From the NCBI RefSeq assembly GCF_001942465.1, contig NZ_MKJY01000111.1, forward strand, positions 124,001 through 188,000: DNA of 64,000 nt, written 5' to 3'. Below are positions 3,866 through 7,590 of this stretch, piece after piece (positions within the stretch are counted from its first letter, which is position 1; the number at the start of each line of letters is the position of its first letter). The notes below the pieces were generated by a model. That model saw nothing but the letters and a program-made list of their open reading frames with translations, ran no database searches and was not told where the DNA came from. Both the position numbers and the translations under genes were made by a program. This DNA comes from Actinomadura sp. CNU-125 (GTDB lineage Bacteria; Actinomycetota; Actinomycetes; Streptosporangiales; Streptosporangiaceae).

Positions 3866-4657
3866 TCAGCGAGAAGTTGCGTGGTTGAAGCGGTACTTCG
3901 ACCAGAGGTAGCCGAAGATCGTGATGCCGACGCACCAGCCGACGGCCTGGGCGCCGCTGTCTCCGATCGGGGCGCCCAGGAGGAGGCCGCGCAGGGTCTC
4001 GGTGAGGGGCGTGAACGGCTGGTACTCGGCGAACCAGCGCAGCGCGGTGGGCATCGTGTCGGTGGGGACGAAGCCGCTGCCGAAGAACGGCAGGAGCATG
4101 AGAAACATCGGGGAGTTGCTGGCGCTCTCGACGGTCTTGGCGGCGAGCCCCAGCCCCACGGTGAGCCAGGTGAGGGCGAGCGCGAAACCGATGAGCAGGC
4201 CGATCGCCGCCAGCCACTCGATCGGGGACGCGTCCGGCCGGAAGCCGATCGCCAGGGCGACGCCGACGACGACCACGATGCCGATCACGGCCTGGACGAC
4301 GCTCCCGATGACGTGTCCGGTCAGGACGGACGGGCGCCAGATCGCCATGGTGCGGAAGCGGTCGATGATGCCTTCGGTCATGTCCCGTGCGACCGACACC
4401 GCGGTGCCCTGCGCCGCCGTGCCCATCGCCATTAGGATGATGCCGGGGGTCACGTAGTCGACGTAGGCCGCCCGCCCGCCCTCGCCGCCCGCGATGCCGT
4501 TCCCGAGGGTGCCGCCGAAGACGTAGACGAACAGGAGCAGAAACAGCACCGGCATGCCGATGAGCATCACCGTCATCGACGGGTAGCGCTGCATGCGCCG
4601 CAGGCTCCGGCGCAGCATCGTCGCCGAGTCGGTCAGGGAGTAGGCCACAGTGTTCAT
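3866..4657 (-). CDS. ABC-2 type transport permease, DrrB-like (intact copy)
   Basis: 263 residues from ATG 4657 (MNTVAYSLTDSATMLRR). About six hydrophobic segments are visible. The loop GGEGGRAAYVDYVTPGIILMAMGTAAQG and the block ARDMTEGIIDRFRTM are typical of daunorubicin-resistance-type exporters of the ABC-2 family. It should form the membrane channel for the DrrA-like ATPase encoded at 6652-7590. It is unusually separated from that ATPase by an IscB element and by a decayed near-identical permease start. Its own GGAG ribosome site lies just outside the element's right end. The exported compound is not known. Confidence 0.85.
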   Translation of the reverse strand: MNTVAYSLTDSATMLRRSLRRMQRYPSMTVMLIGMPVLFLLLFVYVFGGTLGNGIAGGEGGRAAYVDYVTPGIILMAMGTAAQGTAVSVARDMTEGIIDRFRTMAIWRPSVLTGHVIGSVVQAVIGIVVVVGVALAIGFRPDASPIEWLAAIGLLIGFALALTWLTVGLGLAAKTVESASNSPMFLMLLPFFGSGFVPTDTMPTALRWFAEYQPFTPLTETLRGLLLGAPIGDSGAQAVGWCVGITIFGYLWSKYRFNHATSR

Positions 4658-4685
4658 CGGTTCTTCTCCAAGGAGGCTCCAGCCT

Positions 4686-6071
4686 TCAGGCCGAAGAGGA
4701 TTTGGACCTTCTGCGGAGCAGGGCAGGGGCCGTGTGTCCGCCCTGGGCGGATACGAGGCGACCGGCACGGCTCGCAGGCTGTTCGGGTCGGGTTTCGGGT
4801 CGGGTGGTGTAGGCGTAGCCGTCGGCGCGTTGCAAGAGGCGGACGTGGCGGTGGCCGATGCCCTGGACGGTCTCCGTGCCGGTGGTGATGTTGAACCGGC
4901 CGGTGGCGCGTACGGCCACCCGCCCGGTATGGGTGCCGGCTTTCTTCCCGGTGGGGACGACGGCGCGGACCAGGTCCCCGGTCTGGAAGCCGAAGAACCC
5001 CTTGACGCGGGGCAACCGCAACCGGGGGAACCCATGCCGGTCGGTACGGGTGCGGGCGTAGGAGCCGCGCCCGGCGCACCCAGCCACCAGGACCGTGTCG
5101 ACGGTTCCGGTGATGCTGTCGAGGGTGCCGACGGCCAGGGCGTCCAGGGTGTGGGATTTGGGCAGCCGGCTGCGGGTGCGGTTCCATTTGGTGCGCCCGC
5201 CCGAACCGACGCTTGTGGGGAGGCGTTCGTCCAGGGCGCGCCACAGCACCCACCGGGTGGACTGCACCGCCGCCGCGTCCCGCAGCGGCGCCTTCGCGCG
5301 GGCTTTGATCGCGGCGGCCCTGCCGGGGGCGAACTCCTGCACGGGACGGTCGCTCTTGGCCCGGTTGCACGGGATGCAGGCGAGCACCAGGTTCGACACC
5401 CGGTCCGACCCGCCTTGAGAACGGGGGTGGACGTGGTCGATGTTGACCGGCACGCCGGCCGCGTCGCAGTAGACGCACGCCCGCCCGAATTTGGCCAGCA
5501 GGTACTCGCGGACTTCGAAGCCGTGCAGGGTGCCGTGCTGGTACTCGACTCCTTCCAGGGGGCGTCCGGCGGTGAGGGCGTGGGTGTCGAACGCGACCCG
5601 CTCCACGTGCACCGCCCGGACGGGGGCCCAGCGGGTGAGGCGGTCGATCCAGGAGACGGTGGTTTCCACTCGGTGCCGCAGCGACGGTGGCAGCCACCCT
5701 GACGGGCGGGCCCGGTCGCTGAAGCGGGGCGGCCGGTGCCGCAGGTTCCGCGTGCGGCGGCCACGCCGGTAGGCGGCCCGCTGCCGGAGTTTCTTGGTGA
5801 TGGCCGCGCCGCGGTGGTCGAGCCGGATCGCGTACCGGCCGCGCCGCTCCCCGCCGCGGGCGGTGAACACCGCGATGCCGGTGTGCCGGGAACCGGGGTC
5901 GACACCGACTTCGACCCCGTCGATCTGTGATCGTTCGGCGGTGCGGTCTTTGAGGCGGATGACGAACGGGGTGTGGCGCGCCACCACCGCCCGTCCGGCA
6001 TTGAGCAGCTTGCGTGCCCGGGCGGGTGTGGTGGGTTGCAGGGGTGTGCCGTGCTTGTCCAGGACGAACAC
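4686..6071 (-). CDS. iscB: RNA-guided endonuclease IscB
   Basis: Core protein of 461 residues from GTG 6071 (MFVLDKHGTPLQP). Order of parts: a PLMP-type N-terminus (residues 1-45), RuvC-I with GVDPG (Asp58), an arginine-rich bridge helix (about 100-120), RuvC-II Glu157, and an HNH domain about 195-240. The HNH has zinc cysteines at 199, 202, 232 and 235 and a catalytic DH at 212-213. RuvC-III HTLD (Asp310) and a C-terminal TAM-interacting-like region follow. All catalytic residues of both nuclease domains appear intact. IscB uses an omega-RNA to cut DNA next to a short adjacent motif. The frame stays open up to 6329, and an ATG at 6320 has an upstream AGGAG. However, that 86-residue extension is low-complexity and coincides with perfect RNA hairpins, so it is more likely omega-RNA than protein. 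Confidence 0.85.
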   Translation of the reverse strand: MFVLDKHGTPLQPTTPARARKLLNAGRAVVARHTPFVIRLKDRTAERSQIDGVEVGVDPGSRHTGIAVFTARGGERRGRYAIRLDHRGAAITKKLRQRAAYRRGRRTRNLRHRPPRFSDRARPSGWLPPSLRHRVETTVSWIDRLTRWAPVRAVHVERVAFDTHALTAGRPLEGVEYQHGTLHGFEVREYLLAKFGRACVYCDAAGVPVNIDHVHPRSQGGSDRVSNLVLACIPCNRAKSDRPVQEFAPGRAAAIKARAKAPLRDAAAVQSTRWVLWRALDERLPTSVGSGGRTKWNRTRSRLPKSHTLDALAVGTLDSITGTVDTVLVAGCAGRGSYARTRTDRHGFPRLRLPRVKGFFGFQTGDLVRAVVPTGKKAGTHTGRVAVRATGRFNITTGTETVQGIGHRHVRLLQRADGYAYTTRPETRPEQPASRAGRLVSAQGGHTAPALLRRRSKSSSA

Positions 6072-6099
6072 GGCGGGTGGACGTGTGCGGGCCTCACGG

Positions 6100-6438
6100 C
6101 CCTGCTCCCCGGCCCCGGAGGGGCCGGGGGTGACGCCACCGCCGCCGGGTGGGGCGGCGGTGGTCTCCCCTCGACCATGGTGGACACCAGATGCCGCCTC
6201 GGCGGCGTCCACGCCCCGTTTCGTCCCTACTCCGGGGGTGTCTACTGACGCGGATTCCAGAGCGGCGGGCTGAGGAAGCACCCGCCGGTGGGTCTGCTGC
6301 CTTGTGTCCAACGTAGCCATCAAGGTCACCTCTCCTCTGCTGATGGCTGGGTCTGGTCAAACCGGCCTACCGGTCGGCTACGGCGATACGCCGTCACCTC
6401 GCGGCAAGCCCCGGCATTCAAGCCGGGGAGCGTTTGAC
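6100..6438 (-). ncRNA. Omega-RNA (HEARO-type) of the IscB element
   Basis: On the minus strand this stretch is a run of near-perfect stems. A closing stem pairs GTCAAAC (6432-6438) with GTTTGAC (6356-6362). Inside it are CCCCGGC/GCCGGGG and ACGGCG/CGCCGT hairpins. Next come AGCCATCA/TGATGGCT (6341-6348 with 6315-6322), CGGCGGG/CCCGCCG, GCCGCC/GGCGGC, ACCGCCGCC/GGCGGCGGT and CCCCGGCCCC/GGGGCCGGGG. The position upstream of iscB and a length near 330 fit known omega-RNAs. The guide would be the bases just 5' of the closing stem, that is permease-derived sequence at about 6439-6454. Boundaries are estimated. Confidence 0.65.
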
Positions 6439-6655
6439 GTCCATCGCGACCGACACCGCGCAGTGCCCTGCACCGCCGCGGCCTTCGCCATCAGGATGGC
6501 CGTTCCCGAGGGTGCCGCCGAAGAGGTAGACGAACAGGAGCAGGAACAGCACCGGCAATGCTGATGAGCATCACCGACCGGTAGCGCTGCATGCGCCGCA
6601 GGTTCCGGCGAAGCATCGTCGCCGAGTCGGTCAGGGAGTAGGCCACGGTGCTCAT
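6439..6655 (-). pseudogene. Truncated 5' copy of the DrrB-like permease
   Basis: Begins at ATG 6655, overlapping the ATPase stop as ATGA. It encodes MSTVAYSLTDSATMLRRNLR, nearly identical to the intact permease at 4657. The copy then carries a one-base insertion, a six-base loss near 6565 and a loss of roughly 58 bases near 6497. It ends at 6439, equivalent to about codon 93 of the intact gene, exactly where the IscB element begins. The overlap with the ATPase shows this was the original coupled partner. It cannot make a functional permease. Confidence 0.75.
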
Positions 6656-7590
6656 CGCTGCGGCTCCTGGTCGTTCCGGCCGGTGAGAGTGAGGAAGACG
6701 TCGTCGAGGTCGGGGGTGTGCACGGACATCTCCTCGACCTCGATCGACAGCTTGTCGAGGCGGGCGAACAGCTCGCGCATCGAGCGGACGCCGCCGTCGC
6801 TGGGCACCCGCAAGGACAGTTCGTCCTCGCCGAGCGCGGCGCCGTGCAGGCCGGTCGCGGCGGCGGAGAGGGCGGCGGGGTCGGCGAACCGCAGCTCGAT
6901 GTGGCCGCCGGGGACGAGACGCTTGAGCTCGTCGGCGGTGCCTTCGGCGATCAGGCGGCCGTTGTCGAGGACCGCGATCCGGTCGGCGAGCTGGTCGGCC
7001 TCGTCCAGGTACTGGGTGGTGAGGAAGATCGTCACGCCGCTCGCGACGAGGTCGCGGATGGTCTCCCACATGGTGCGGCGGCTGCGGGGGTCGAGGCCGG
7101 TGGTGGGCTCGTCCAGGAAGATGACGGCCGGGCTCCCGACGAGGGTCATCGCCAGGTCGAGCCTGCGGCGCATCCCGCCGGAGTAGGTGGAGGCGGGTTT
7201 GCGGCCCGCCTCCACCAGGTCGAACCGTTCGAGCAGCTCGTCGGCGCGGCGCCGGGACGCGGCCCGCCCGAGATGGTGCAGGTCGCCCATCAGGGCGAGG
7301 TTCTCCCGGCCGGTGAGCAGGTTGTCGACGGCCGAGTACTGGCCGGTCACGCCGATCGCCGCGCGGACGGCGTCGGCGTCCCCGGCGGGGTCGTGCCCCA
7401 CGACCCGCATCCGGCCGGCGTCGGCGGGGATCAGCGTGGTGAGGATCTTCACGATGGTCGTCTTGCCCGCGCCGTTCGGGCCGAGCAGGGAGAAGATCGT
7501 CCCTTTGGCGACCCGCAGGTCGACGCCGTCCAGCACGATCTTGTCGCCGTACGATTTGCGTAGGCCGGTGGCCGTGATGACGGGTTCCAC
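6652..7590 (-). CDS. ABC transporter ATP-binding protein, DrrA-like
   Basis: 312 residues from GTG 7590, with GGAGAG about eight bases upstream. Walker A GPNGAGKTT, the signature YSGGMRRRLDLAMTLVG and Walker B VIFLDEPTTGLDP are present. The C-terminal third (RFADPAALSAAATGLHG... MSVHTPDLDDVFLTLTG) is the regulatory extension of DrrA-type exporters for drugs or lipids. It probably drives an ABC-2 permease at the membrane. The adjacent, coupled permease is a pseudogene, so its working partner must be the intact permease at 3866-4657, about 2 kb away across the IscB element. Read-through transcription or the element's own promoter would be needed. Confidence 0.9.
   Translation of the reverse strand: MEPVITATGLRKSYGDKIVLDGVDLRVAKGTIFSLLGPNGAGKTTIVKILTTLIPADAGRMRVVGHDPAGDADAVRAAIGVTGQYSAVDNLLTGRENLALMGDLHHLGRAASRRRADELLERFDLVEAGRKPASTYSGGMRRRLDLAMTLVGSPAVIFLDEPTTGLDPRSRRTMWETIRDLVASGVTIFLTTQYLDEADQLADRIAVLDNGRLIAEGTADELKRLVPGGHIELRFADPAALSAAATGLHGAALGEDELSLRVPSDGGVRSMRELFARLDKLSIEVEEMSVHTPDLDDVFLTLTGRNDQEPQR

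Follow-up and report, generated by a model that had tools for sequence, protein, structure and literature searches.

HEARO elements insert next to ATGA or GTGA. In the case of TnpB, the omega-RNA overlaps the gene at its 3' end. To our knowledge, the natural balance between IscB guide RNA and IscB protein is poorly studied. According to PMC9640706, IscB is regarded as a likely ancestor of Cas9. For IsrB, as set out in PMC9581776, the omega-RNA carries a Shine-Dalgarno sequence in its 3'-terminal hairpin, SL7, and the authors of that work suggest that expression is regulated. TnpB, as described in PMC10278001, processes its own mRNA into omega-RNA. Here, we describe an IscB element in a 64,000-nucleotide stretch of DNA from Actinomadura sp. 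CNU-125 (the window; contig NZ_MKJY01000111.1, positions 124,001 to 188,000) and compare it with its actinomycete relatives. The comparison establishes an overlap of gene and omega-RNA, covariation of the start codon with its pairing partner, an open frame through the overlap, and a common type of junction. From these we consider, with a probability of roughly three in four, that translation in this IscB subgroup starts in an omega-RNA hairpin and that the element is docked before host start codons.

The window locus is confirmed, by profile and covariance matches, as a real IscB/HEARO element with an ordinary IscB as its protein. The protein matches the curated IscB profile guided_IscB (NF040563) with 401.4 bits, where the cut-off is 175, and also RRXRR (PF14239, 221.5 bits) and HNH (PF01844, 43 bits). 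The RuvC and HNH residues D141, E240, H296, N319, H390 and D393, counted from the ATG at 6320, are invariant in an alignment of 33 sequences. Hence, a first-pass annotation, made from the letters of the window alone, was right that all catalytic residues are present. Mapped by motif, without direct alignment to OgeuIscB, these residues match the roles of D61, E193, H247, H340 and D343 as named for OgeuIscB in PMC9640706. By sequence, the nearest solved structures are TbaIscB and HfmIscB. A structure search with the predicted model, which is of moderate quality (predicted template modelling score, pTM, 0.61), ranked IscB and IsrB structures first. RNA-guided cleavage activity is what these features would predict for the window protein. 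Among 59 genomes searched, IscB scored above the cut-off in four (the window's own, G022, G024 and G032); the other matches were mostly partial, around model positions 183-243.

The same annotation described a recognisable omega-RNA and proposed a HEARO covariance search as the check. That search found one, at 6160-6438 (72.2 bits, E 4.3e-14 in 2.1 kb), under the Rfam gathering score of 83. The match came from a permissive scan, and none of the Rfam families passed its gathering threshold anywhere in the 64-kb window. Scores in relatives are also below 83, at 59-79 bits in 9/9 relatives and 35-58 bits in 4/4 same-genus copies. A scan of the 10-Mb assembly at E up to 10 gave no further HEARO match. 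Folding of the window omega-RNA gave a z-score of -2.8, and 2/200 shuffles folded equally well. The left edge of the element is HEARO model position 1, at 6438. The right edge is 4658, and the next four minus-strand bases, 4657-4654, are ATGA, the junction type common to the relatives.

A putative start codon within the omega-RNA

Relatives were collected by a profile search of genome contigs, using an alignment of four IscBs. The best 80 of 82 loci, with titles naming actinomycetes, were kept. Together with the window this gives 81 loci, of which 79 have a usable core position (L099 and L101 were left out), 70 a right end and 64 both ends. In 73 of the 79, a pattern consisting of a start codon and CTACGT, upstream of the core, locates a start embedded in the omega-RNA. 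In 70/73 loci, the stretch from this start to the core reads through without a stop and has a length divisible by three, from 234 to 312. The other frames over the same stretch are stop-free in 27 (+1) and 6 (+2) of the 73. A Shine-Dalgarno sequence of at least four bases accompanies the embedded start in 72 of these loci, and one of at least five bases in 70. Of the three exceptions, L107 and L109 have core matches that are themselves not a multiple of three, and L098 is broken in the extension. Six loci do not show the pattern. Three of them (L062, L081 and L090) are open, by eye, from a Shine-Dalgarno sequence and ATG, L091 no longer has this portion of the RNA, and a contig end cuts off L059 and L112.

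The embedded start is also base-paired. In all 70 loci listed, a hairpin with 6 to 9 pairs holds the start codon in its 3' arm. GGAGGTG is found in the hairpin loop of 66/70, and the window reads GGAGAGGTG. The window hairpin has 9 pairs and its stem is present in the predicted fold. Start codon and partner are ATG/CAT in 35 loci, TTG/CAA in 24 and TTG/CGA in 8, with TTG/CAG, GTG/CAC and TCG/CGA once each. On a quick IscB tree (74 rows, 65 labelled) there are 15 start-codon changes and 15 partner changes. Counting independent supported pairs on that tree, the partner follows the start codon in 6/6 (sign test p 0.03). The TCG, in L071, is paired with CGA and directly preceded by TTG. Since TCG is no start codon, L071 would begin elsewhere, for example at this TTG.

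Because the frame is open in 70/73 loci, and a Shine-Dalgarno sequence and start codon are conserved within the omega-RNA, the extension is most likely translated. We conclude that IscB of the actinomycete group is, most likely, translated through its own omega-RNA. Note that one IscB survey, PMC13180657, describes swapping N-terminal insertions for a downstream start where possible. Such constructs would lack the embedded start.

One rival reading is that this is an ordinary IscB, translated from the core GTG at 6071. The extension would then be untranslated omega-RNA, with the open frame and the Shine-Dalgarno-like loop as by-products of RNA conservation and high G+C. Several observations weigh in this direction, and against an embedded start. 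With a 4-base criterion, a Shine-Dalgarno sequence precedes the core start in 30/79 actinomycete loci. The NCBI annotation of L115 (Streptomyces canus) puts the start at the core. Substitutions at the three codon positions number 3543/4466/3680 in the omega part of the extension, 521/676/609 in the linker and 12787/8853/28108 in the core. Hence, a third-position excess is confined to the core, and the extension is not conserved as protein in its amino acids. Finally, the predicted structure is disordered over residues 1-79 (predicted local distance difference test, pLDDT, 25-34).

The opposing evidence lies in the frame and the ribosome-binding sites. An ordinary IscB does not readily account for a stretch that is stop-free and a multiple of three in 70/73 loci, across many lengths, and broken in three copies of which two have broken cores. 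Moreover, Shine-Dalgarno matches of at least five bases precede only 4/79 cores, compared with 70/73 embedded starts and 11/18 annotated IscB starts elsewhere; in the window, none is clear ahead of the core start. The annotated starts belong to a control set of 19 annotated plasmid IscB loci, of 51 matching plasmid records, with 18 from other phyla. In those 18, a match of at least four bases precedes the annotated start in 16, so that plasmid IscBs of other phyla mostly carry their Shine-Dalgarno sequence at the core. Fifteen of the plasmid loci have a comparable motif, and in none is a start codon there combined with an open core frame: the frame is open in three that lack a start codon, and another has TTG with three stops. 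L115, a Streptomyces plasmid copy missed by the pattern, has a Shine-Dalgarno sequence, ATG and open frame within its omega-RNA. All told, we consider translation from the core alone to be unlikely.

What, then, is the extension? In third-position G+C it lies below the core (0.857), with 0.649 for its omega part and 0.731 for its linker. The first-pass annotation had noticed this difference and took the extension to be RNA-coding. The composition is as described, and the lack of a third-position substitution excess agrees that the extension evolves like RNA. However, RNA is probably not all that it encodes, given the open frame in 70/73 loci with a Shine-Dalgarno sequence and start codon. Hence, our data weigh only against the conclusion that it is not translated. 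We also considered whether the extension is a conserved protein domain, and rejected this in view of the absent third-position excess and the disordered model. Most likely, the extension is translated RNA, rather than a domain, in which the frame is kept and the amino acids are free.

Element junctions and host start codons

Element ends were set as follows. Left ends called by script coincide with the HEARO model start in 9/9 relatives compared; 11 loci needed hand corrections, and L062, L065 and L107 have no left end. The right end was taken as the first ATGA past a conserved LLQRADGY-like motif, so that counts lean towards ATGA, and the 11/81 loci without a right end were left out of right-end counts. 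In nine loci (L040, L048, L050, L069, L073, L074, L084, L085 and L108) the right end was set or corrected by hand after viewing the downstream frame, which biases those nine towards start codons. The right end of L099 is doubtful.

With right ends sought as ATGA, the junction is ATGA in 61/64 loci, and ATGA or GTGA in 62/64, in keeping with HEARO insertion. The three others are GTGA (L050), ATGC (L048) and ATGG (L108). An ATGA-type adjacent site, as the first-pass annotation had suggested for the window, is thus the norm in the group. The ATGA is usually the beginning of a host gene. For 57 relatives, downstream frames of at least 100 amino acids were compared with NCBIfam or Pfam; 12 shorter frames were left out. 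Note that the first 20 proteins were picked for their resemblance to known genes, and the remaining 37 were scanned later. A family was matched by 41/57 frames, of which 32 are clear starts, with the match beginning near the first profile position and within the first 31 residues. These include menD, era, ruvA, hisA-trpF, tsnR, ispE, pth, ybeY, guaB, murT, hom, ruvX, nrdB and pcaG. Eight more (L044, L061, L076, L081, L086, L087, L095 and L102) are compatible with a full N-terminus, their match starting further in, and one, in L039, is truncated.

The flanks point to the same kind of site. When they are joined, a frame of at least 100 codons results at 53/63 sites, compared with 157/426 other ATGA in the same loci (binomial 1.5e-14, relatedness ignored). 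In the 18 bases to the left, a Shine-Dalgarno match of at least four bases occurs in 39/64 loci versus 314/1212 other ATGA in the same loci, and one of at least five bases in 23/64 versus 109/1212. Across 500 shuffles of the left flanks, a match was present in 17.8 on average and 28 at most (39/64 observed). Hence, the guide is often likely to be a host ribosome-binding site. For L075, the joined guaB flanks exist ungapped in relatives (356 bases, query 5-360, in G014), and uninterrupted in the window's own genome (322 bases, query 39-360).

Four points temper the case for docking at start codons. In L039, the element interrupts an aldehyde dehydrogenase gene (residue 1 aligns with profile position 141). 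No family was matched by 16/57 downstream frames. Taken by itself, the left-flank figure is what one would expect if approximately half of the sites were start codons; as calibration, a Shine-Dalgarno sequence was detected at 43/49 starts in one annotated Streptomyces stretch. The family matches suggest a larger share. Fourth, the Shine-Dalgarno sequence near the right end, described below, is missing in 34/70 loci (19 Nocardiopsis and 15/51 others).

A second rival reading needs no attraction to start codons. Here, insertion occurs before any ATGA, and gene-breaking insertions are simply lost. ATGA-type HEARO targets are known, and both the insertion within a gene in L039 and the mid-gene left junction of the window are as this account would have it. 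The numbers of starts are harder to accommodate. In annotated plasmid stretches, 740 ATGA comprise 34 starts, 461 sites inside genes and 245 between annotated genes, the gene table being incomplete. Hence, starts should make up approximately 12% of non-disruptive sites. We observe at least 32 clear starts in 57 frames, with one truncated, which is far above this. What is excluded is only the form of the survival account that treats all intergenic ATGA as equal; survival and start-codon targeting can act together. Loss of damaging insertions, as the sole cause, stands in our estimate a little short of even odds. The docking pattern itself is strong, and targeting or survival could each be its cause.

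The last 18 bases of the element include a Shine-Dalgarno match in 36/70 loci (shuffles, 11.2 on average and 20 at most). All of these are outside Nocardiopsis (0/19 loci, compared with 36/51 others, including the window with a 4-base match). The left end begins GTAA in 39/64 loci; the window has GTCA. In L111 and L113, the stop codon of the upstream frame is the TGA of ATGA, and the TAA of the left end replaces it, leaving the protein end unchanged. Of five loci viewed for a stop at the left end, L069 is one where the upstream frame gains none. At the other side, IscB terminates at the TGA of the target ATGA in 9/70 loci, one of them the doubtful L099.

Outside the actinomycetes, an annotated gene beginning with ATGA lies at most 150 bases past the IscB stop in 9/19 plasmid loci, all from other phyla, with 10 lacking one; of the nine, L117 and L127 are on similar plasmids. 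Docking seems to be wider than the actinomycetes, and less regular, or less well annotated, in those other phyla. In a Deinococcus plasmid (L118, 1991-5271), IscB lies between parA and parB and ends at the parB start codon.

Further loci deserve mention. The same gene follows elements of different species in four pairs: ispE in L054 and L087, guaB in L068 and L075, nrdB in L062 and L074, and hisA-trpF in L046 and L052. Either repeated targeting or old shared insertions would produce such pairs. The gene at the right flank of L051 encodes a TsnR/NshR-type 23S rRNA methyltransferase, of the thiostrepton resistance family. In L036, the junction ATGA opens only 24 codons, and an ATGG approximately 16 bases downstream looks like the true start.

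The window copy and its flanks

Coordinates of the window features are collected in Table 1. In the close relatives G006 and G022, an ATPase gene is followed by a single permease gene. In the window, the order is ATPase, decayed permease fragment, element and then a complete permease starting ATGAAC. The fragment, of 217 bases, differs from the intact copy by small indels and by a larger deletion inside it.

Table 1. Features of the IscB locus and its surroundings in the window.
Feature	Positions	Strand	Basis or remarks
Whole IscB element	4658..6438	minus	1781 bases, from left end GTCA... to last base ahead of ATGA
IscB core with stop (PLMP/RRXRR, RuvC, HNH, C-terminal part)	4686..6071	minus	profile matches, alignment
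In-frame N-terminal extension over omega-RNA and linker hairpins	6072..6320	minus	open frame, 83 codons
Omega-RNA (HEARO, RF02033)	6160..6438	minus	72.2 bits, full model length 1-211
Omega-RNA hairpin with putative translation start	6315..6348	minus	5' arm 6340-6348, loop 6324-6339, 3' arm 6315-6323
Shine-Dalgarno sequence GGAGAGGTGACC in hairpin loop	6324..6335	minus	sequence
Start codon region TTG ATG in paired arm	6318..6323	minus	ATG at 6318-6320
G+C-rich hairpin between omega-RNA and core	6129..6170	minus	sequence
Putative guide, 16 bases 5' of omega-RNA, from broken permease copy	6439..6454	minus	predicted from position and the guide length given in PMC9640706
GGAG near right end, 8 bases before permease start codon	4666..4669	minus	sequence; right-end enrichment in 70 loci
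ATGA at right junction, start codon of intact permease	4654..4657	minus	sequence
Intact ABC-2 permease (DrrB-like)	3866..4657	minus	profile matches
Guide-like site and ATGA within intact permease	4378..4397	minus	3 mismatches in 16
Decayed 5' fragment of second permease copy	6439..6655	minus	breaks off exactly at the ATGACC of the homologues
DrrA-like ATP-binding protein of an ABC transporter, encoded upstream of the two permease copies	6652..7590	minus	TIGR01188, 328.3 bits

The first-pass annotation identified the putative guide as permease sequence and proposed ATGACC, which follows the matching stretch in the intact permease, as the adjacent site. The guide region is indeed permease sequence and ATGACC does follow the match; G006 carries this permease site uninterrupted. 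However, the real right flank of the element is ATGAAC, and the two flanks are not one target site. Hence, by comparison with homologues, the left end goes back to an old mid-gene insertion into a permease, the right end adjoins a start codon, and the flanks are from two different ATGA sites. Recombination between two insertions, loss or duplication of sequence at the right end, or a misassembly could explain the hybrid flanks.

Compared with the intact permease, the guide has 3 mismatches in 16, which occupy positions 5-7 when counted from the adjacent motif. With OgeuIscB, according to PMC9640706, mismatches at positions 1-14 abolished cleavage. Hence, cutting of the intact permease copy by the window IscB is unlikely.

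A third rival reading is that the window copy is a dead or domesticated relic. The hybrid flanks, mid-permease on the left and a permease start codon on the right, favour this, as does the guide: apart from the element's own junction, no site in the assembly has fewer than 3 mismatches to the guide followed by ATGA. The transposase searches also favour a relic, and they count against our main reading. No TnpA (Y1 transposase) frame was noted inside the element, which was not scanned separately and has no room for one beside IscB. The window contains no Y1 transposase match, and the two matches elsewhere in the assembly each have an in-frame TAG, so that no intact Y1 transposase was seen in an assembly that is about 88% complete. 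Yet the reading frame, nuclease residues, omega-RNA fold and start hairpin of the window copy are all intact, and real decay looks different, as the sister copy L008 in G006 shows. We regard a relic as less likely than not. L008, in this same-genus genome (about 915-2045), is a decayed copy that has lost the HNH part, with an omega-RNA scoring 45.7 bits. Its right end is also directly ahead of an ATGA that resembles a gene start.

A proposed mechanism and comparison with known systems

Start of translation in the omega-RNA, and docking before host start codons, can be combined in one scheme. Transcripts from a host promoter would run through the guide, omega-RNA, IscB and host gene, and IscB translation would begin at the start codon in the omega-RNA hairpin. 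Each RNA copy could then be either a message, with the omega-RNA opened by the ribosome, or a guide, folded and bound by IscB with the start codon hidden. Ribosomes and IscB would compete for the same RNA, creating negative feedback. At the far side, approximately half of the loci would gain a new Shine-Dalgarno sequence from the right end. Some host genes behind the elements are commonly regarded as essential; we propose that insertion before even these is tolerated because the right end restores a Shine-Dalgarno sequence. Empty copies of the site, consisting of a ribosome-binding site and ATGA, would be the cleavage target, and cleavage would keep the element in place. In the window, this arrangement would have been rearranged, with left and right flanks from two ATGA sites.

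Taken to its end, the scheme describes a translation-gated nuclease. IscB bound to the omega-RNA would hide its own start codon and shut off its synthesis, in an element built to be silent at operon junctions, where its left end supplies a TAA in at least two loci (L111 and L113) and its right end often restores a Shine-Dalgarno sequence. With a ribosome-binding site as guide, and the host start codon as adjacent motif, the nuclease would police housekeeping start codons that are hard to lose. We offer this tentatively, at a little less than even odds. A start codon base-paired within the guide RNA makes autoregulation of IscB directly testable. Docking at start codons, if true, would help to explain how the elements persist beside housekeeping genes, and many natural guides of the group would then be ribosome-binding sites.

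Among the papers listed in our literature searches, we recognised none with start codons inside an IscB omega-RNA or with IscB docking at start codons. The gene-RNA architecture is probably a new one, and the protein is an ordinary IscB. IS200/IS605-type elements have their own Y1 transposase TnpA, which the window element lacks. The window element shares with described IscB/HEARO (OMEGA) elements the domains and residues of the protein, the family of the omega-RNA, a guide located 5' of that RNA and an ATGA-type 3' adjacent motif. It differs in that the putative start of its group is inside an omega-RNA hairpin, rather than at the core, and in the 83-codon extension over the omega-RNA; furthermore, the actinomycete RNAs scanned (the window and 13 relatives) score under the Rfam cut-off.

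The likeness to IsrB, as presented in PMC9581776, is that in both cases the nuclease has its ribosome-binding site within the guide RNA. The IsrB hairpin is terminal and immediately before the coding region, whereas that of the window group is internal and most of the omega-RNA is also coding. An IsrB-like arrangement, with a Shine-Dalgarno sequence in the final hairpin ahead of the core start, is not what the group has, the 5-base match being present in 4/79 loci. The overlap is at the 5' end of the gene for the window IscB and at the 3' end for TnpB. With TnpB, as far as PMC10278001 describes it, the likeness is that a single transcript is both message and guide.

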